From Carboxylicivirga sp. (lineage in GTDB: Bacteria > Bacteroidota > Bacteroidia > Bacteroidales > Marinilabiliaceae): a stretch of 64,000 nt of DNA. The notes beneath the pieces are model-generated. The model saw only the letters and a program-made list of their open reading frames with translations, had not been told where the DNA came from and searched no databases. Numbering within the stretch: the stretch's first letter is position 1; each line of letters starts with the position of its first letter. The stretch lies in contig JAOARW010000055.1 in assembly GCA_025210475.1 (NCBI GenBank), forward strand, positions 1 through 64,000. The letters are read 5' to 3'. Made by a program: the position numbers and the translations under genes. Positions 55,906 to 64,000 of this stretch are shown piece by piece.

Positions 55906-56175
55906 ATGCCGGATAACAAAAACGCAATAGAGAAAACAATCACTGAGTTCATTGTTCAAAATTCACATTCCGACACTTCATCTATGCAAAATACGACACT
56001 TCTTTTTAAAGAAGGAATCTTTGATTCAATGGGTTTTGTTTTGATGGTCGATTTCATCGAGGAAAAATTTAGTATTTCAATTGATAACGACGATTTCACT
56101 GAAGAAAACTTTGAATCAATTTCAGCGATTACGGAATACGTTTATAAAAAATCAAATGTCAAAGCTGTCATCTAA
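55906..56175 (+). CDS. Acyl/peptidyl carrier protein
   Basis: An 89-residue carrier protein. The phosphopantetheine site is Ser41 in FDSMGFVLMVDFIEE; helix III and the acidic surface are typical. It differs from housekeeping AcpP (DSL motif, about 78 residues) and opens a five-gene operon with a ligase that could load it. It should need a phosphopantetheinyl transferase from elsewhere in the genome. Confidence 0.88.
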   Translation: MPDNKNAIEKTITEFIVQNSHSDTSSMQNTTLLFKEGIFDSMGFVLMVDFIEEKFSISIDNDDFTEENFESISAITEYVYKKSNVKAVI

Positions 56176-56185
56176 CCCATAGCTT

Positions 56186-58171
56186 ATGTGTGGCATCGCT
56201 GGATTTTTAAACCTAAAAGGAATTAGGAGTAATATGTCGACTGTGTGTAATCGCATGTTGTCGCGTATTCAACATCGGGGGCCAGATGAAAGTGGAATAT
56301 ACTCTGACCCATATGTAGCATTGGGTAGTGTTAGGCTTAGTATTGTTGACCTGGCAGGCGGTCAGCAACCAATGTCGGCTGCCAATGAAAGATACTGGAT
56401 TGTTTATAATGGTGAGATATTTAACTACCCTGAATTAAAAACACACCTAAAACAGTTAGGACATTCCTTTCGTACCGAGTGTGATACCGAAGTATTACTT
56501 CATGCCTGGTTACAATATGGTCCCGATTGTTTGAAAAGATTAAACGGACAGTTTGCTTTTGCCATATGGGATCGTCAGAATCAGGAATTATTTCTGGCCA
56601 GAGATCGGGTTGGTATCCGTCCTTTGTTTTATACCTGGCATAAAGAAAATCTGATTTTTGCTTCCGAGATTAAATCTTTACTTGAGTTTCCAGGATTTAC
56701 AGCAGTACTTGACCCTAAAGCATTAGCTCAGATTTATACTTTTTGGGCGGCCCTAAGTCCTAAATCGGCTTTCAAAGGTATTAATGAAGTGCCTCCCGGG
56801 CATTATCTTCACATTAGCTCAAAGGGAACAAAACTCCATCAATGGTGGCAACTTAACTATCCCCTTGATGAAAGTGATCGATTTCAGGGATCATTTGAAG
56901 AAGCTTGCGACGAGCTCAGAAGCATTTTGAGCGATGCTGTAAGATTGAGATTACGTGCAGATGTTCCTGTTGCTGCCTACCTAAGCGGAGGGCTCGATTC
57001 TAGTGCAACAACTGCTCTTATTCGCGACGTGGCACCTGATGCATTTCAAACCTTTTCCATTGGATTCGAAGATGATGAATTTGATGAAAGTGATTATCAA
57101 AAAGAAACATCAGAATATTTAAATACACGTCACCAGTTTTTTACTTGTAAAAAAAGTGATATTGGCGAACTCTTTCCCAGGGTTATTTGGCATACAGAGA
57201 CACCAATACTGCGCACAGCACCGGTTCCGATGTGTTGTCTTTCGGAAAAAGTAAGGGGAGAAAACATCAAGGTAGTGATAACCGGTGAAGGAGCCGACGA
57301 AATGTTGGCGGGTTATGATATTTTTAAAGAAGCGATTATCCGCGATTTCTGGTCTCGCGAACCTAAATCAAAATACCGCCCCCTTTTATTAAACAAGTTA
57401 TACCCATATCTTCAGCAGTTTAAAGGGCGTAATCAGGCCATGCTTAAACTATTCTATGGATACAAGCTGGAAGAAACCGCTTCTCCTTTATATTCTCATT
57501 TCCTTCGTTGGAAAAATACATCGAACCTGCTCAATTATTGTTCCGATGACTTTCGGGATACCATCAATGGTTTTGATGCACTGAAGGATGTTAACCAGCT
57601 CTTACACACTGATATTAATAAATGGGATCGACTAAGCCAATCGCAATGGCTGGAAATTAGCACATTTATGTCGCCATATTTACTTTCGTCGCAGGGTGAC
57701 CGAGTAGCCATGGCTAATTCTGTTGAAGGACGTTATCCTTTTTTAGATTACCGTTTAATGGAATTTACGGCCAGTTTACCTCCTGATTATAAAATGCACG
57801 GACTTAACGAGAAGTACATCCTTAAAATGATGATGAAAGGGAAATTACCAAAATCGGTACTCCAAAGACCTAAACAAGCCTACCGGGCGCCGGTATCAAA
57901 AAGTTTTCTTTCCGATCATAGCCCGGCCTATGTAAATGATATGTTATCGCAAGAGAATATTAAAAACACTGGCATTTTCAACCCAGCACAAGTCGCCCGT
58001 TTACTTGAAAAAATCAATCAAAGCCAATTAGTATCCGAGATTGATAATATGGCATTGGCAGCAATTCTTTCAACACAACTTTTGCATCATCAATTTGTAC
58101 TTAAGAAAGGTAACTTCTCCAAAGAACCTGAATTACTTAAATGTAAAACACTTATCAATCACACTTCATAA
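56186..58171 (+). CDS. asnB: Asparagine synthase-like glutamine amidotransferase
   Basis: A 661-residue class II amidotransferase plus ATP-pyrophosphatase. The N-terminal nucleophile is Cys2 (MCGIAGFL); the glutaminase domain spans about 2-210. The synthase domain has LSGGLDSS near 265 and the acidic EGADEMLAGYD near 370. It is longer than housekeeping AsnB (about 555), similar to AsnB-like enzymes in exopolysaccharide and natural-product loci. It probably amidates a carboxylate activated as an adenylate. Starts 10 nt after the carrier-protein gene. Confidence 0.9.
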   Translation: MCGIAGFLNLKGIRSNMSTVCNRMLSRIQHRGPDESGIYSDPYVALGSVRLSIVDLAGGQQPMSAANERYWIVYNGEIFNYPELKTHLKQLGHSFRTECDTEVLLHAWLQYGPDCLKRLNGQFAFAIWDRQNQELFLARDRVGIRPLFYTWHKENLIFASEIKSLLEFPGFTAVLDPKALAQIYTFWAALSPKSAFKGINEVPPGHYLHISSKGTKLHQWWQLNYPLDESDRFQGSFEEACDELRSILSDAVRLRLRADVPVAAYLSGGLDSSATTALIRDVAPDAFQTFSIGFEDDEFDESDYQKETSEYLNTRHQFFTCKKSDIGELFPRVIWHTETPILRTAPVPMCCLSEKVRGENIKVVITGEGADEMLAGYDIFKEAIIRDFWSREPKSKYRPLLLNKLYPYLQQFKGRNQAMLKLFYGYKLEETASPLYSHFLRWKNTSNLLNYCSDDFRDTINGFDALKDVNQLLHTDINKWDRLSQSQWLEISTFMSPYLLSSQGDRVAMANSVEGRYPFLDYRLMEFTASLPPDYKMHGLNEKYILKMMMKGKLPKSVLQRPKQAYRAPVSKSFLSDHSPAYVNDMLSQENIKNTGIFNPAQVARLLEKINQSQLVSEIDNMALAAILSTQLLHHQFVLKKGNFSKEPELLKCKTLINHTS

Positions 58172-58183
58172 CATATTATAATC

Positions 58184-59152
58184 ATGAACTTTAATAAAGA
58201 CATCCTTAAAATTAAAAACCCTCAGGAAGAATGCGCGATCATCAGCGATAAAATTAAAAGCGATGTACTTCAAAAACTTAACCGGATGGGTGCTGTTATT
58301 GGTATCAGCGGTGGTATTGATTCAAGTGTGACCTTGGCCCTTACTGTTAATGCTTTGGGACCAGAAAACGTTTTGGGTATAATTATGCCTGAACAGGATT
58401 CAAGTCCGGATAGTGCCCTTTTGGCTCATCAACTGGCCGATCAATTTAAAATACGCACAATAACCGAAGAAATTACTGGTGCCTTACAAGGTTTCAGGTG
58501 CTATGAACGTCGTGATGAGGCAGTTAAAACTTTGTTTCCTGATTACGAGCCGACAACCTGGAAAATGAAAATTGGTTTAAAGGAAACTGGTTTACTCTCC
58601 AACCTTCCTCAAATGTTCTATCTAACCGTAATCGATCCGGATGGAAAAGAATTTGAAAAAAGATTGCCTGCTAAAGCCTATCGACAAATTGTAGCCGCCT
58701 CTAACTTTAAGCAACGCAGCCGTATGTCAATATTGTATTACCATGCCGAGGCCTTACATTATGCAGCCATTGGAACACCTAATAAACATGAGGTTCAACA
58801 AGGCTTCTTTGTGAAAAATGGAGATGGAGGTGCCGATGTAATGCCAATTGCACATTTATATAAAACACAGGTATATCAATTGGCACGAGCGCTTAATATA
58901 CCAGATGAAATTATTAGCCGAACACCAACTTCCGACACTTATACTGCTGAACAAACTCAGGAGGAATTTTTCTTTCAAATGCCATTTGACACACTAGATT
59001 TATATTGGTATGCCTTCGAAAACAACTTCGACCCTTATAAAGTGGGTCAAATAATGGGCTGCACGGCTGATGATGTTGAGCGAATTTTCCGCGGTTTCGA
59101 TCGAAAAATTAAAACAACAGAATACCTGCGCCTAGAACCAATAAAATACTAA
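58184..59152 (+). CDS. NAD synthase-like ATP-pyrophosphatase, with insertion
   Basis: A 322-residue NadE-like protein. The P-loop SGGIDSSVTLAL (about 43-54), QRSRMSILYYHAEAL, IGTPNKHEV, KNGDGGADVMPIAHLYKTQV and the C-terminal PTSDTYTAEQTQEEF match NadE landmarks. It has an extra segment of about 70 residues (about 100-170) not found in normal NadE, and no glutaminase domain. In this operon it may form an amide on a small molecule using ammonia, perhaps from its AsnB neighbour. True NAD synthase activity is the alternative. Confidence 0.82.
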   Translation: MNFNKDILKIKNPQEECAIISDKIKSDVLQKLNRMGAVIGISGGIDSSVTLALTVNALGPENVLGIIMPEQDSSPDSALLAHQLADQFKIRTITEEITGALQGFRCYERRDEAVKTLFPDYEPTTWKMKIGLKETGLLSNLPQMFYLTVIDPDGKEFEKRLPAKAYRQIVAASNFKQRSRMSILYYHAEALHYAAIGTPNKHEVQQGFFVKNGDGGADVMPIAHLYKTQVYQLARALNIPDEIISRTPTSDTYTAEQTQEEFFFQMPFDTLDLYWYAFENNFDPYKVGQIMGCTADDVERIFRGFDRKIKTTEYLRLEPIKY

Positions 59153-59155
59153 ACT

Positions 59156-60733
59156 ATGACACCGATACCTCAAAGATTGCTGGGTGAAGCACTACTCAAA
59201 ACTGCTGCATCACATCCTGATAAAGAGGCGATATTGATTAAAGATCGTCAATACACCTACCAACAATTACTTACGGCTTCGCTAAAAATGGCGCGTCATT
59301 TGTTAGATAATGGTCTGCAAAAGGGGCAAAGGGTAGCCTTGTATATGAACAACAATTGGGAATGCATTGTGTCGTTATACGGAACGACATTAGCCGGAGG
59401 CGTCTTTTTGGTAATCAATCCACAAACAAAAGCTGATAAACTATTATATATTTTAAATGATTGCGGTGCCAGCGTACTCATTACTGAAGCGCCATCTGCA
59501 AGAGAATTTAATGGAATACTGGATAAGGTTGAAAAGCTGGAACAATTAGTAGTAGTAGGTCAACAGCAAAATATTAACGATGTCGAAGTGTCTAAAGTGA
59601 GTACCTTTGACCAGGTTCAGAGTGGTGATACTATTTTACCGGAACAACTTCCACTTATTATACCTAATGACCTGGCGGCACTTATCTATACCTCTGGCAG
59701 TACGGGTTTTCCAAAAGGAGTGATGATGACGCATCAATCCATGGTATTTGCTTCGTGGAGTCTTACACAATACCTGAGGTTGACTGAAGATGATCGAATT
59801 ATTGTACTTTCTCCTTTTGCATTTGACTATGGGCTTTATCAACTATTGATGACTGTAACAGTAAAAGGTTCACTGATTGTGGAGCAATCATTCACCTTCC
59901 AAAGCACCATTTACAAGCTTATTGATAAATACCAGCCAACTATTTTCCCTGGTGTTCCAACCATCTATGCCATGATGATTTCATCGTGGAAAAAGAAACC
60001 TTTCAGTCTGGGTTGTATTAAAAAAATAACAAATACAGCGGCGGCTCTTCCGGCATCCTCATTACCTCAACTGAAAGAAATATTTCCCAATGCCCTAATT
60101 TTCAAAATGTATGGACTCACCGAATGCAAACGCGTTTGTTATCTTGAGCCCGAATTATTGGATGAAAAGCCGGGATCCGTTGGTAAGGCCATGCCAGGTA
60201 CCGAAGTCTTTCTATTATCACCTGATGGAAAAAGGGTAGAGAATGGAGGTAGTGGTATCTTACACATACGGGGACCACACGTCATGCTAGGCTATTGGAA
60301 TAAACCGGATTTAAGCAATCAAATGTTGATTGATGGAGAATTACCTTACGAACGAGTGCTCTGTTCAAACGATTGGTTCAGAACCGACGACGAAGGTTTT
60401 TTGTATTTCCTCGGCCGAAATGATGATATTATCAAAACGCGAGGCGAAAAAGTAAGTCCCATCGAAATCGAGAACATCATACATAAGGTGCAAGGCATTC
60501 GCGAAGCAGCAGTGTTTGGTATTCCTGATAAAATTCTGGGAGAGGCCATTGTTGCCTATGTGACATGTAATGGTGATGCCCCCAATGAAAAAGGAATTCA
60601 ACAAATATGTGCTTCCAAGCTGGAATCATTCATGGTGCCTCAAAAAATATTTTTCATCGATGAAATGCCTAAAAGTACCAACGGTAAAATAGATAAAAAA
60701 GAACTCAAAAAAATGAATCATGAGTCAGTCTAA
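59156..60733 (+). CDS. Acyl-adenylate ligase (AMP-binding)
   Basis: A 525-residue ANL-superfamily enzyme. The P-loop motif is YTSGSTGFPKG (178-188), the A5 block is KMYGLTE, the hinge region is NDWFRTDDEGFLYFLGRNDDI, and the catalytic Lys is in PKSTNGKIDKKEL near the end. It could activate an acid and load it on the operon's carrier protein or on CoA. It resembles acyl-CoA ligases seen in exosortase-type loci. It starts 3 nt after the NadE-like stop. Confidence 0.92.
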   Translation: MTPIPQRLLGEALLKTAASHPDKEAILIKDRQYTYQQLLTASLKMARHLLDNGLQKGQRVALYMNNNWECIVSLYGTTLAGGVFLVINPQTKADKLLYILNDCGASVLITEAPSAREFNGILDKVEKLEQLVVVGQQQNINDVEVSKVSTFDQVQSGDTILPEQLPLIIPNDLAALIYTSGSTGFPKGVMMTHQSMVFASWSLTQYLRLTEDDRIIVLSPFAFDYGLYQLLMTVTVKGSLIVEQSFTFQSTIYKLIDKYQPTIFPGVPTIYAMMISSWKKKPFSLGCIKKITNTAAALPASSLPQLKEIFPNALIFKMYGLTECKRVCYLEPELLDEKPGSVGKAMPGTEVFLLSPDGKRVENGGSGILHIRGPHVMLGYWNKPDLSNQMLIDGELPYERVLCSNDWFRTDDEGFLYFLGRNDDIIKTRGEKVSPIEIENIIHKVQGIREAAVFGIPDKILGEAIVAYVTCNGDAPNEKGIQQICASKLESFMVPQKIFFIDEMPKSTNGKIDKKELKKMNHESV

Positions 60734-61643
60734 ATCGCCTTTATTTAACAACTTGCTAAACGAACTATCCTCTGAATTATTTTTTTTGAGTGACAAACCA
60801 GAAGAAACACCCGAATCAACCTTAAAAGCGTTATGGCTGATGGCTGCAGGTGAACCCTTATCAGCAATAAAAGCCTTGGAAACATCGCTGCCTAAACTGA
60901 CATCTGAACAGCAGGAAACATTATTGAAGTTATTACAGCAAAGAAAAAATAATATTCCTTTAGCCCATTTAACAAAGCGGCAATCATTTATGGGAATTGA
61001 GATGCTTGCTGACAAACGGGCACTGATACCCAGAAAAGAAACAGAAATATTAGGTAAGAAAGCATTAGAGTTATCCCATTTGCTAGCAAAGAAATACAAA
61101 ACCGTGCGCGTTTTGGATATATGTTGTGGAGCGGGTAACCTGGGTTTGGCACTGGCTTATCATAACCATAACTGTCAGGTTTGGTGCAGCGACTTAACTG
61201 ATGATGCTGTGGCTTTATGTCTTGAAAATATTGAACATTTAAACTTTGAACATGCCGTGAAAGTGCAACAAGGTGACTTATTTTCTGCATATGATAATCC
61301 TTCATTCCATCAAAATACTCATCTAATAGTTTGTAATCCTCCTTACATTACTAGCTCTAAAGTGGCTAAAATTGATCAGGAGATAGCTGATAATGAACCC
61401 AACGAAGCTTTTGATGGTGGTATGTTGGGAATAAATGTAATGATGCGTTTATTAAACGAAGCGGCCCGTTTTATGACCGATGACGGGTGGTTGGCATTTG
61501 AACTGGGAGCCGGTCAGGGACAGATCATGCAGCAGATTATGAAGAAAACAGGTCTTTACGAAAACCCTCTAGAGTTGGTTGATGAATCTGGTACCGTGCG
61601 TGTACTAATAACGCAAAAATGTGTAAAGGATGAAACAAATTAG
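60720..61643 (+). CDS. HemK/PrmC-like methyltransferase
   Basis: A 307-residue class I AdoMet methyltransferase. After a helical N-terminal region it has LIPRKETEIL (102-111), motif I VLDICCGAGNLGLALA (131-146) and CNPPYI (205-210). These match PrmC, which methylates release factors at Gln; the rest of the N-terminal domain is different, and the operon suggests N- or O-methylation of a small molecule instead. Its start overlaps the ligase gene by 14 nt, so the two are translationally coupled. Confidence 0.87.
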   Translation: MSQSKSPLFNNLLNELSSELFFLSDKPEETPESTLKALWLMAAGEPLSAIKALETSLPKLTSEQQETLLKLLQQRKNNIPLAHLTKRQSFMGIEMLADKRALIPRKETEILGKKALELSHLLAKKYKTVRVLDICCGAGNLGLALAYHNHNCQVWCSDLTDDAVALCLENIEHLNFEHAVKVQQGDLFSAYDNPSFHQNTHLIVCNPPYITSSKVAKIDQEIADNEPNEAFDGGMLGINVMMRLLNEAARFMTDDGWLAFELGAGQGQIMQQIMKKTGLYENPLELVDESGTVRVLITQKCVKDETN

Positions 61644-61795
61644 CAAACTTAGCGTTTAAATGAGGTATTGACAGCCACCCTCTTTTAACTTAAATTTATT
61701 CCGTTTGCTGATCTGCCTGCGGGTTCTTCTCTCCACTGTGCCTAACGTACAGTTATACTTTTTATTTCGAATCATTCACTATTTACATTAGTATC

Positions 61796-63223
61796 ATGCA
61801 CTTGTCCTTGATAACAAAGTACCTTCTTTTGCTTTTACTTCCATTTATGCTCTGCTGCAAGAAAAACATTGTTAAAGATAAATCTGACGGAGATGGTGAT
61901 GGTGGTGGTGATGGGAGTGGCCCTCTTCCTCCTACTGAATATGTTGGAGGCCAATATTTTGTTGATCCAAACGGATCAGATTCTAATGACGGAACTGTAG
62001 AAAAACCCTGGAAAACATGGGCCAAAGCTTTTAAAACAGCTGAAGCTGGTGATACAGTGTATTTTCGCGAAGGTATTTACGAGTCCACAAGTGGCAACAA
62101 TGGCGAGCGTGATTTTAACTCTGGTACAGTTGATAAACCAATATGCTTTTTTAATTATCCGGGAGAAAAACCAGTTCTCGATTGCAGTAATCGTGACATG
62201 ACACTTGGTTACAACAAAGGTATCACCATCTGGCACCAAAAAAATATACACTTCAAAGGCTTAGAAGTTCAAAATCTATTTCAACGAATGGATGCCCATG
62301 TGGTGGGCATTGAGGCCTGGGATGTGGCCAATGTCACTTTTGAAAACATGACCGTACACCATGTTGCAGGTGAAGCATTTTTGGTAGCAGATTTTCATGG
62401 AACGGTCAAATACATTAATTGTGATGCCTACAGTTTATGCGATTCGCTTCAATCGGCAGTTTACCCAACACCAGGTTCACCCGGTCAGAATGGTGCCGGA
62501 TTTCATTTTAGAAATTATAATGCCACCGACGGAGCTACTGACTCGAAATTAATTTATTACGGTTGCAGAGCCTGGGAGTTTTCTGACAATGGCTTTGCCG
62601 GGACATCGGTCGGTTATGTTGAGTGGGATCAATGCTGGGCTTTTGACGGAGGTGCACTAAGTGGTGAAGGTTGTGGATTTAAATACGCTTCAACTTACCG
62701 GGATGATAATAAATTACAACAGGCCCGTTTAATCAAAAACTGCATCGGGGCTAACAATGCGGCTTATGGCTTTTCTCCCAATAATGCGGGCGATAGTCCT
62801 TTGGTTGGAAAATATTATAACAATACCGCCTATTACAATGGGCATAAAGATGGTTTAGGCCATGGACTTGGTTATGGATGGATCATTATGCAAACAAATC
62901 CTCCTTATCCACCACCAACTGGTGAAATCTATACCAATAACCTATCGTATGATAACCACAAAGCCGATTTTCATCGTGTACGAACCCAGCAAACCAACGA
63001 TGATAATAACAATTGGAATTATGGCTTGAATCTGAGCGATAGTGATTTTGAAAGTGTTGATTGGAGTGAGCTTAAGTTACCTAGGAAAGAAGATGGCAGC
63101 TTACCCGATATTAATTTTATGAAACCCAGAAGTGGATCAAGTTTAATTGATAAAGGAGTACAAGTAGATGGCATAAAGTTCAAGGGAGCAGCCCCTGATT
63201 TGGGTGCTTTTGAAATTGAATAG
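61796..63223 (+). CDS. Secreted lipoprotein with right-handed beta helix
   Basis: A 475-residue exported protein. The signal helix ends in LPFMLCCKK, a probable lipidation site, followed by a Gly/Asp-rich linker. From about 53 the domain opens with YFVDPNGSDSNDGTVEKPW and continues as parallel beta-helix coils with the words GDTVYFREGIYE and IHFKGLEVQN, the DUF1565/PL9-like pattern. It ends with DLGAFE, typical of such lyase-like proteins. It may bind or cut an acidic polysaccharide; catalytic residues cannot be assigned. It lies 152 nt after the ACP operon, perhaps a separate unit. Confidence 0.82.
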   Translation: MHLSLITKYLLLLLLPFMLCCKKNIVKDKSDGDGDGGGDGSGPLPPTEYVGGQYFVDPNGSDSNDGTVEKPWKTWAKAFKTAEAGDTVYFREGIYESTSGNNGERDFNSGTVDKPICFFNYPGEKPVLDCSNRDMTLGYNKGITIWHQKNIHFKGLEVQNLFQRMDAHVVGIEAWDVANVTFENMTVHHVAGEAFLVADFHGTVKYINCDAYSLCDSLQSAVYPTPGSPGQNGAGFHFRNYNATDGATDSKLIYYGCRAWEFSDNGFAGTSVGYVEWDQCWAFDGGALSGEGCGFKYASTYRDDNKLQQARLIKNCIGANNAAYGFSPNNAGDSPLVGKYYNNTAYYNGHKDGLGHGLGYGWIIMQTNPPYPPPTGEIYTNNLSYDNHKADFHRVRTQQTNDDNNNWNYGLNLSDSDFESVDWSELKLPRKEDGSLPDINFMKPRSGSSLIDKGVQVDGIKFKGAAPDLGAFEIE

Positions 63224-63255: not shown

Positions 63256-64000
63256 ATGAAACAACTGTTTTTATCCTTAATGCTGGTGGCAATTACACAT
63301 CAGGCATACTCTCAAAATCAGATCATTGCGGATCATACCATTGTGAATGATTACGACAAAATACCTGATTATTACATCAATGAAGTGAAAAAAATGATGG
63401 TTTCTATTCCGGGAGCTTCTCATGCCAGGGCTTATCGCATCGGACTGGAAATGCTTGAAGACATTAATCCAAAATTTGCTGTTAATGTAGCCCACGAGGA
63501 AGCTAATACGGATCAATACCTGCGCTGCAACGACATCAATGACAATGAGTTCGTTGAAGACAAATGGTATACCTGGTACGCCTGGCCCGAAAATAACAGA
63601 CCATCTGAGGCAACCATTGTAAAGGACATGATTAGCCGTAATCAAAACAAAAATCTGGTGGCCATCGCTTTTGGCTGGTGCTGGGCTATGATGAGTAGTA
63701 ATGAGGGGCGAGAAGATGAAGTTGATGCCGAACATAAAGTGAGATGGTTCGGAAGTTCTCATGGTGGACCAGATGGATCACTGGAATGGGGTATAGATAA
63801 TTCTGATCAGTCAACTACTCAAAACCGAGTCAGCTTACAAACCTATCTGGATGCAACAGTTGATTATATAAATTATTGCGAAACAAATAATTATATAACC
63901 AAACCATTTTTCACTACCGGACCGGTGGATAAATATACCGGAGAAAAGGCATATCAGGGCTACATTAAGCATGAACGGATTCGGGAATTTGTCAGGGAAG
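63256..64000 (+). CDS. Secreted protein, truncated by the window end
   Basis: The first 248 residues of an exported protein; the frame stays open at base 64000. A signal peptide (MKQLFLSLMLVAITHQAYSQ) is cleaved near residue 19. The mature part has KMMVSIPGASHARAYRIGLE (about 47-66), many Trp and Asn residues and no motif I can assign with certainty. The Ser-His word near 54 could be compared with SGNH-type hydrolases. It follows the beta-helix gene by 32 nt, so the two probably act on the same polymer. Confidence 0.7.
   Translation, partial: MKQLFLSLMLVAITHQAYSQNQIIADHTIVNDYDKIPDYYINEVKKMMVSIPGASHARAYRIGLEMLEDINPKFAVNVAHEEANTDQYLRCNDINDNEFVEDKWYTWYAWPENNRPSEATIVKDMISRNQNKNLVAIAFGWCWAMMSSNEGREDEVDAEHKVRWFGSSHGGPDGSLEWGIDNSDQSTTQNRVSLQTYLDATVDYINYCETNNYITKPFFTTGPVDKYTGEKAYQGYIKHERIREFVRE

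Follow-up and report, generated by a model that had tools for sequence, protein, structure and literature searches.

A recurrent carrier-protein operon beside an exopolysaccharide locus in Carboxylicivirga, with a HemK-like gene that accompanies a VinN-like ligase type

What is made by an operon that joins a carrier protein, two ATP-pyrophosphatases, an AMP-ligase and a methyltransferase? The question is raised by a 64,000-nucleotide stretch of Carboxylicivirga sp. (GenBank assembly GCA_025210475.1, contig JAOARW010000055.1, positions 1 to 64,000; hereafter the window), which makes up the start of a contig of 128,642 bp (C40) in a genome of 7.42 Mb. Our analysis gives good support to four points: the genes belong to one conserved module, this module frequently has an exopolysaccharide (EPS) setting, its ligase carries a VinN-like substrate pocket, and the HemK-like gene is tied to that pocket. 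From the sequences we infer a substrate, an order of steps and a product. In the resulting reading, to which we assign a probability of roughly 45%, the operon provides, for a surface exopolysaccharide, an amino-dicarboxylic acyl group in carrier-bound, amidated and N-methylated form. The five genes are as follows.

55906..56175, + strand: acyl/aminoacyl carrier protein (ACP), 89 aa, with a DSMG serine motif
56186..58171, + strand: AsnB-type glutamine-hydrolysing amidotransferase, 661 aa, with N-terminal MCGI and an SGGLDSS loop
58184..59152, + strand: NadE-like ATP pyrophosphatase, 322 aa, with an SGGIDSS loop, NF002048 family
59156..60733, + strand: AMP-ligase, 525 aa, with VinN-like pocket residues D224, Y225, T294, K325 and R326
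60720..61643, + strand: predicted HemK/PrmC-like N-methyltransferase, 307 aa, with an NPPY motif

The open reading frame (ORF) listing agrees with the positions, the 3-12 nt gaps and the 14-nt overlap given in the original prediction. Successive genes are separated by 10, 12 and 3 nt before the final overlap, a spacing consistent with co-transcription of all five; a promoter scan upstream of the operon revealed no clear promoter. Pfam and NCBIfam searches returned the same family labels that had been proposed from the letters. AsnB matched TIGR01536 at 522 bits (cut-off 267), gene 3 matched NF002048, named "NAD(+) synthase", at 421 bits (cut-off 313), the ligase matched PF00501 (AMP-binding) at 292 bits, and gene 5 matched the HemK family TIGR00536 at 181 bits (cut-off 115.5). 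The carrier falls marginally short in Pfam (PP-binding, 19.9 bits against a cut-off of 20.8); its best NCBIfam match is the AmcB ACP (47.7 bits, cut-off 80), followed by an ornithine-lipid ACP and DltC, all below cut-off. These matches fit the earlier description of a carrier-based acid-activation set with two ATP-pyrophosphatases and a methyltransferase, and no polyketide synthase (PKS) or nonribosomal peptide synthetase (NRPS) condensation enzyme is found among the five genes.

Genomic surveys revealed that carrier, AsnB, NadE-like and ligase genes occur together in many genomes. A NadE-like protein above cut-off occurs in 39 of 71 genomes of the window's family and in 12 of 296 genomes of a wider phylum sample, the window's own among them. 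We examined 38 family loci, the best 80 of 274 named GTDB candidates and the window's own locus. The 118 loci with a NadE-like ORF were reduced to 108 non-redundant ones by removal of ten duplicate NadE rows; one locus with a type-B ligase (L053; types are defined below) was left out, its NadE frame having been lost in ORF pruning. Among the 108 loci, a ligase was detected in 102, AsnB in 100, an ACP in 81 and HemK in 24, counts that are lower bounds because many contigs end inside the set. The commonest order, ACP-AsnB-NadE-ligase, is shared by 48 type-B loci and, with HemK added, by 10 type-A loci, and shuffled orders occur too. In 11 loci of the phylum sample, examined by tblastn and motif only, we recovered 11 NadE-like proteins, 11 ACPs, 10 AsnB proteins, 10 ligases and no HemK. 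Catalytic motifs are largely retained: SGGxDSS in 106 of 108 NadE-like proteins, the serine motif in 79 of 83 carriers and NPPY in 23 of 26 unique HemK proteins. Of 90 long AsnB proteins, 86 begin with MCG near the N-terminus, but only 71 show the strict loop SGG[LMI]DSS.

Recurrence of the gene set across two phyla, Bacteroidota and the one that holds the Alphaproteobacteria, is more than chance. The original interpretation is partly supported. The module is widespread and no isolated combination, and we found neither a description of the set nor a described product for it in the open-licence literature, which is weak evidence of absence. The EPS context, the breadth of the module and a VinN-like pocket whose presence the HemK gene tracks all go beyond what had been predicted.

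Comparison of the ligases revealed two main types, and the presence of HemK follows this division closely. Type-A ligases are 57-72% identical to that of the window, with one outlier at 41%, and carry the motif FDYGLYQ; type-B ligases are about 24-32% identical to it and have Cys in place of the Asp of FDYGLYQ. They also differ in a second motif: TECKR marks the type-A ligases (27 of 28 unique sequences) and TEATAR the type-B ligases (76 of 77), the exceptions being fragments of 328 and 281 aa, respectively; 2 of 107 unique ligase-cluster proteins fit neither motif. HemK accompanies the ligase in 22 of 26 type-A loci and in 0 of 74 type-B loci of Bacteroidota (Fisher p 2e-18), a test that left out eight loci, two with both ligase types and six in which no ligase was found. 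A tblastn search with HemK proteins, window excluded, gave the same picture (21 of 25 against 0 of 74). HemK and type-A ligase genes share a strand in all 25 pairings; in 19 of these they overlap or are no more than 80 nt apart. On the NadE tree, ligase type changes nine times, at least six of them on well-supported branches; an average of 4.9 of 6 phylogenetically independent pairs link HemK to type A, and no pair shows the opposite. All 12 congeners with a NadE-like protein over cut-off possess a type-B set.

The same association was observed in the second phylum. Searching 72,556 plasmid records by tblastn and listing hits by genus, we found the NadE-like protein (E<=1e-40) in 116 records (Sinorhizobium 76, Azospirillum 12, Ensifer 9, Shinella 8, Mesorhizobium 7, Rhizobium 2, Nitratireductor 1, Roseateles 1) and the HemK protein (E<=1e-30) in 90 (Sinorhizobium 75, Ensifer 9, Mesorhizobium 6). 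In the alphaproteobacterial regions examined, asnB, ACP, ligase and nadE lie side by side. HemK is near the set in two Mesorhizobium plasmids, whereas in Sinorhizobium meliloti it belongs to an EPS locus at a distance of about 12 kb; the sets of Azospirillum, Shinella and Rhizobium have no HemK in the stretch examined. Ligases of the HemK-bearing sets carry FDYGLYQ and TECKR, and the other three have Gly at the place of the Asp, so that the rule linking HemK to ligase type is the same in these six organisms.

What the type-A ligase activates can be predicted from its pocket, which has the residues of VinN, a ligase that activates (methyl)aspartate at its beta-carboxylate for an ACP. Among PDB sequences, only 3wv4 and 3wvn matched a pocket segment of 142 residues from the window ligase at E<=1e-8, and both entries are VinN (PMC11253843); the full-length protein scores higher against linear gramicidin synthase than against VinN. 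Three stretches align closely between window and VinN: FDYGLYQLL with WDFGLYKVL, TNTAAALP with TNSAAALP, and YGLTECKRV with YGQTECKRI. According to the VinN literature, D230 holds the amine, F231 and S299 are enlarged residues and K330/R331 lie in a shortened loop (PMC11253843), Ser299 and Arg331 are proposed to recognise the alpha-carboxyl group (PMC7756342), and the VinN-type enzyme AfcQ activates L-Asp (PMC12186527). The window ligase has the corresponding Asp for the amine, a bulky next residue, a small polar residue at the position of 299 and Lys-Arg in a loop one residue shorter than that of type-B ligases. We predict that it is an aspartate-type amino-dicarboxylate:ACP ligase. The Arg equivalent to R331 is kept in 16 of 16 ligases compared, across the codes Asp, Cys, Gly, Ser and Thr, which suggests that a dicarboxylate is handled by every version, and one bearing an amine by the Asp-coded version alone.

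Genes 3 and 5 bear names of housekeeping enzymes, and a plain housekeeping reading (NadE plus PrmC) was considered and rejected: the genome encodes a separate 561-aa NadE on contig C55 and another PrmC on contig C37, so that genes 3 and 5 are extra copies and probably have other jobs. Of 39 genomes with NF002048 over cut-off, the window's included, 36 also have a NadE frame of at least 529 aa among the matches listed; of the remaining three, G028 and G029 have NadE fragments and G032 has none among those matches. By fold as well as by sequence family, gene 3 is a NadE relative: an AlphaFold2 (AF2) model (pLDDT 83.5) matches the NH3-dependent NAD synthetase 2e18 (TMq 0.66), and residues ~106-165 are without a match in both PDB sequence alignments shown. 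We predict an amide-forming enzyme rather than an NAD synthase. Annotated plasmid records name the gene "NAD(+) synthase", probably misleadingly, and one names the methyltransferase "HemK/PrmC family". An NF002048 protein over cut-off is also present in Methanosarcina acetivorans, a control genome.

The genomic setting points to a surface polysaccharide. Convergent with the operon and just past the window's end lies an EPS locus of about 23 kb (C40:64593-87568), whose 22 proteins include, by Pfam, a Wza-type export protein beside a Wzc-type protein, a CapA-type protein, a flippase-type protein (PF01943), several glycosyltransferases, hexapeptide acyltransferases, a DUF3473 deacetylase, a Gcn5-related N-acetyltransferase (GNAT) and a 3-ketoacyl-ACP synthase III (KAS-III) enzyme with a short-chain dehydrogenase/reductase (SDR). 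Of the 108 Bacteroidota loci, 78 contain one or more EPS hallmark clusters in the fetched DNA. The hallmarks were sugar transferases, Wzc, Wza, hexapeptide acyltransferase, glycosyltransferase, nucleoside diphosphate (NDP)-sugar epimerase, PF02719-type protein, membrane-bound O-acyltransferase (MBOAT) and flippase, with one representative of each cluster checked by Pfam. In S. meliloti a HemK-GNAT pair sits inside the EPS locus, and in Azospirillum the whole set does. A GNAT-like family of about 360-370 aa (37-62% mutual identity) accompanies the set in S. meliloti, Mesorhizobium ciceri, Shinella and Rhizobium, its name resting on the annotation of the S. meliloti record and on similarity; Azospirillum has a different GNAT, which overlaps nadE and is the sole one with a Pfam GNAT match over cut-off. 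A capsule locus with a defined product had been named as an outcome that would overturn the original prediction: the context is indeed exopolysaccharide, and no product is defined.

Combining these observations, we propose the following route. The ligase would adenylate the distal (beta-)carboxylate of L-aspartate or a close relative and load it onto the ACP, as its pocket residues suggest, leaving the alpha-amine and the alpha-carboxylate free. The NadE-like enzyme would then amidate the free carboxylate, with AsnB serving either as the ammonia source or as a second amidating enzyme, whose target would be the acyl group or else a uronic acid in the sugar; amidation would here replace the pyridoxal phosphate (PLP)-dependent decarboxylation that follows VinN-type loading in vicenistatin. 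The HemK-like enzyme would next methylate a nitrogen, most likely that of the new amide. In the last and weakest step, an N-acyltransferase, for example one resembling the GNAT-like proteins of the alphaproteobacterial sets, may transfer the group to an amino sugar of the EPS. A more specific version has a carrier-held dicarboxylic acyl group amidated by a relative of NAD synthetase and N-methylated by a relative of HemK, so that polysaccharides in both phyla would receive an N-methylated isoasparagine-type amide; in its full detail this version strikes us as rather unlikely. Under it, the sets coded Cys, Gly, Ser or Thr, with Arg kept, would make unmethylated amides of amine-free dicarboxylates.

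Several observations weigh against the proposed acyl-group pathway. No acyltransferase gene lies inside the window operon, similarity between the GNAT encoded in its EPS locus and the alphaproteobacterial GNAT-like proteins is only weak, and 30 of the 108 loci show none of the EPS hallmark clusters. HemK is not obligatory for type A, as three type-A loci with DNA on both sides have none (L131, L154, L159); in the fourth exception, L122, the contig ends inside the ligase. The other two of the 24 HemK loci contain both ligase types (L115) or no detected ligase (L141), NadE-like plasmid records exceed HemK records by one in Sinorhizobium and by one in Mesorhizobium, and the sign test on independent pairs alone gives a median p of 0.06. 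There is also a puzzle if the amide is what is methylated: the amidating enzymes are no different in sets with other ligase codes, and HemK was never seen there. Methylation of the alpha-amine would explain why HemK tracks the ligase; such a reaction is unusual for an NPPY enzyme.

Different divisions of labour can be imagined. AsnB might make a nucleotide-sugar uronamide, as WbpS does in Porphyromonas, and the ligase, ACP, NadE-like and HemK-like proteins a separate acyl group, the two meeting on the same EPS sugar. PMC7468200 describes AsnB-type WbpS as needed for the uronamide of the type IX secretion system linking sugar and VimA as proposed to add Ser or Gly, and AsnB-type genes occur in a Rubrivivax EPS cluster for which the portion seen of PMC3684757 mentions no acyl carrier or ligase. 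Within our loci, NadE and the ligase stay together even where AsnB lies apart or is undetected. Against this, AsnB was detected in 100 of 108 loci, and the commonest orders place it directly between ACP and NadE, a position that suggests action on the carrier-bound group; we regard such a split as doubtful. A secreted small molecule such as a signal, toxin or metallophore is less probable still. The enzyme set does look like one for a natural product, and the cited passages place VinN-type ligases in vicenistatin and lipopeptide pathways, whereas the recurring neighbours here are mostly EPS genes and an SGNH-type protein, and among recurring neighbour clusters we saw no condensing, release or dedicated export gene.

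A further possibility, that a protein such as a release factor, a ribosomal protein or the ACP is the substrate of the HemK-like enzyme, which would only travel with the ligase, appears to us very improbable. In its favour, the enzyme keeps NPPY and scores 194.0 bits against the PrmC model TIGR03534, just under the cut-off of 199.1. Yet the genome's separate PrmC reaches 261.9 bits, the window protein is closer to the alphaproteobacterial module HemKs (38% identity) than to that PrmC (28%), and its presence follows ligase type. We retain carrier-bound acyl-group synthesis for an exopolysaccharide as the preferred reading.

How does the module relate to systems already described? VinN/VinL-type loading (vicenistatin; BolO, AfcQ) likewise uses a stand-alone ligase with the same pocket residues beside a stand-alone ACP. 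Here, however, the set includes no PKS or NRPS, has two amidating enzymes and a HemK-like methyltransferase instead, and stands in an EPS context. A moderately sensitive BLAST search (E<=1e-3) with one query, the genome's LysA-like decarboxylase, detected no PLP-dependent decarboxylase among the Bacteroidota neighbourhood ORFs, in seven alphaproteobacterial loci or in C40:1-122000. The exosortase-A-associated set (TIGR03098, TIGR03108 and decarboxylase TIGR03099) is similar in EPS context and supplies the best NCBIfam match of the ligase (TIGR03098, 438.4 bits) and the second-best of AsnB (TIGR03108, 454 bits), but the present module adds NadE-like and HemK-like genes. As had been surmised, it is not an exosortase-type set: both scores lie below cut-off (592.35 and 816.9 bits), the genome's one exosortase-family match (37.3 bits, C103:33860-34483) is on a different contig from the operon, and no TIGR03099 decarboxylase exceeds cut-off in the genome (best match 190 against 478 bits).

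The Wbp/Vim linking-sugar pathway of Porphyromonas and Tannerella also combines AsnB-type amidation with an amino acid on a surface sugar. In the part of PMC7468200 consulted, a putative N-acetyltransferase-type enzyme attaches the amino acid, and the pathway as described there has no carrier protein, AMP-ligase, NadE-like or HemK-like enzyme. For comparison, the window's EPS locus shows a GNAT and a polysaccharide deacetylase only; WbpA/B/D/E and VimA/VimE were not searched for. Synthesis of the osmoprotectant N-acetylglutaminylglutamine amide (NAGGN) shares AsnB homology with the module, at 377.6 bits against the TIGR03104 amidotransferase (cut-off 570.1); the other NAGGN enzymes were not searched for.

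The Dlt system consists of the ligase DltA, the carrier DltC, the MBOAT protein DltB and DltD. The module resembles it in pairing a ligase with a small carrier and, in three loci (L144, L148, L155), in having an MBOAT gene close to the set, with an SGNH-type gene too in two of them. It differs in that its amidating and methylating enzymes have no Dlt counterpart and in that MBOAT is rare (10 of 108 loci). An SGNH-type family is found in 31 of 108 loci, and for the AF2 model of its Geofilum member (pLDDT 84.9) the top PDB matches are PatB and carbohydrate esterases, none of them reaching E<=0.001. Dlt-like transfer by an MBOAT protein is not supported for the window's locus, where an SGNH-type protein is present (C40:65150-65947) and no MBOAT match at E<=0.001 was obtained among the 22 proteins of the EPS locus, one of them scanned in part.

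Taken together, genes annotated as NAD(+) synthase and HemK/PrmC look like parts of an undescribed surface-sugar pathway common to many Bacteroidota and legume symbionts. The new result, that the ligase comes in types and that the HemK-like gene accompanies the VinN-like one, brings with it a direct and cheap prediction, aspartate loading by the ligase. The product could be sought in two cultivable hosts, S. meliloti and M. ciceri.

Downstream of the operon, the window contains three further features.

61735..61753, + strand: terminator-like stem-loop with a T-rich tail, 3' of gene 5, weak (the scan gave 7 sites against 4.7 in shuffles)
61796..63223, + strand: pectate-lyase-like right-handed beta-helix gene, also 3' of the operon in two Geofilum loci
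63256..64000, + strand: 5' part of a gene for a 409-aa protein of unknown family, which runs past the window's end

The latter two genes lie between the operon and the EPS locus. Both Geofilum loci keep the order HemK, beta-helix gene, 409-aa-type gene, followed on the opposite strand by a hexapeptide acyltransferase, an SGNH-type protein, a glycosyltransferase and a flippase. A 409-aa-type protein lies beside the module in 8 of the 108 loci. Other companions are a VOC protein in eight loci (none of type A) and a SnoaL-like protein in six (all of type A), the latter gene being near the ligase in some, such as L134 and L152. Two type-A loci, L109 and L139, have two HemK-like genes each, and ComEC and TrkA genes flank the locus in one family.

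Because genome contamination is 5.15%, mis-binning of the contig was considered; it was rejected on two flanking genes that reach 85% and 96% identity with congeners and keep their order in all four congeners aligned, which places the contig in the genus. DNA similarity to these four ends at ~54,660, and their next 9.5-18 kb show no operon or EPS-locus match (blastn E<=1e-20). From there to about 87 kb on C40, the operon and EPS locus look like a variable island of the kind typical for surface polysaccharides. A second small carrier (C40:71581-71811, - strand; PP-binding 23.6 bits, over cut-off) inside the EPS locus adjoins the KAS-III and SDR genes (C40:70516-71574 and C40:69737-70501, both - strand), and these three probably provide the same polysaccharide with a second, short acyl group. 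The neighbouring region C40:92197-111136 encodes sulfatases, a heparinase II/III-like enzyme and a GH88-like protein and is likely a sulfated-glycan utilisation cluster.

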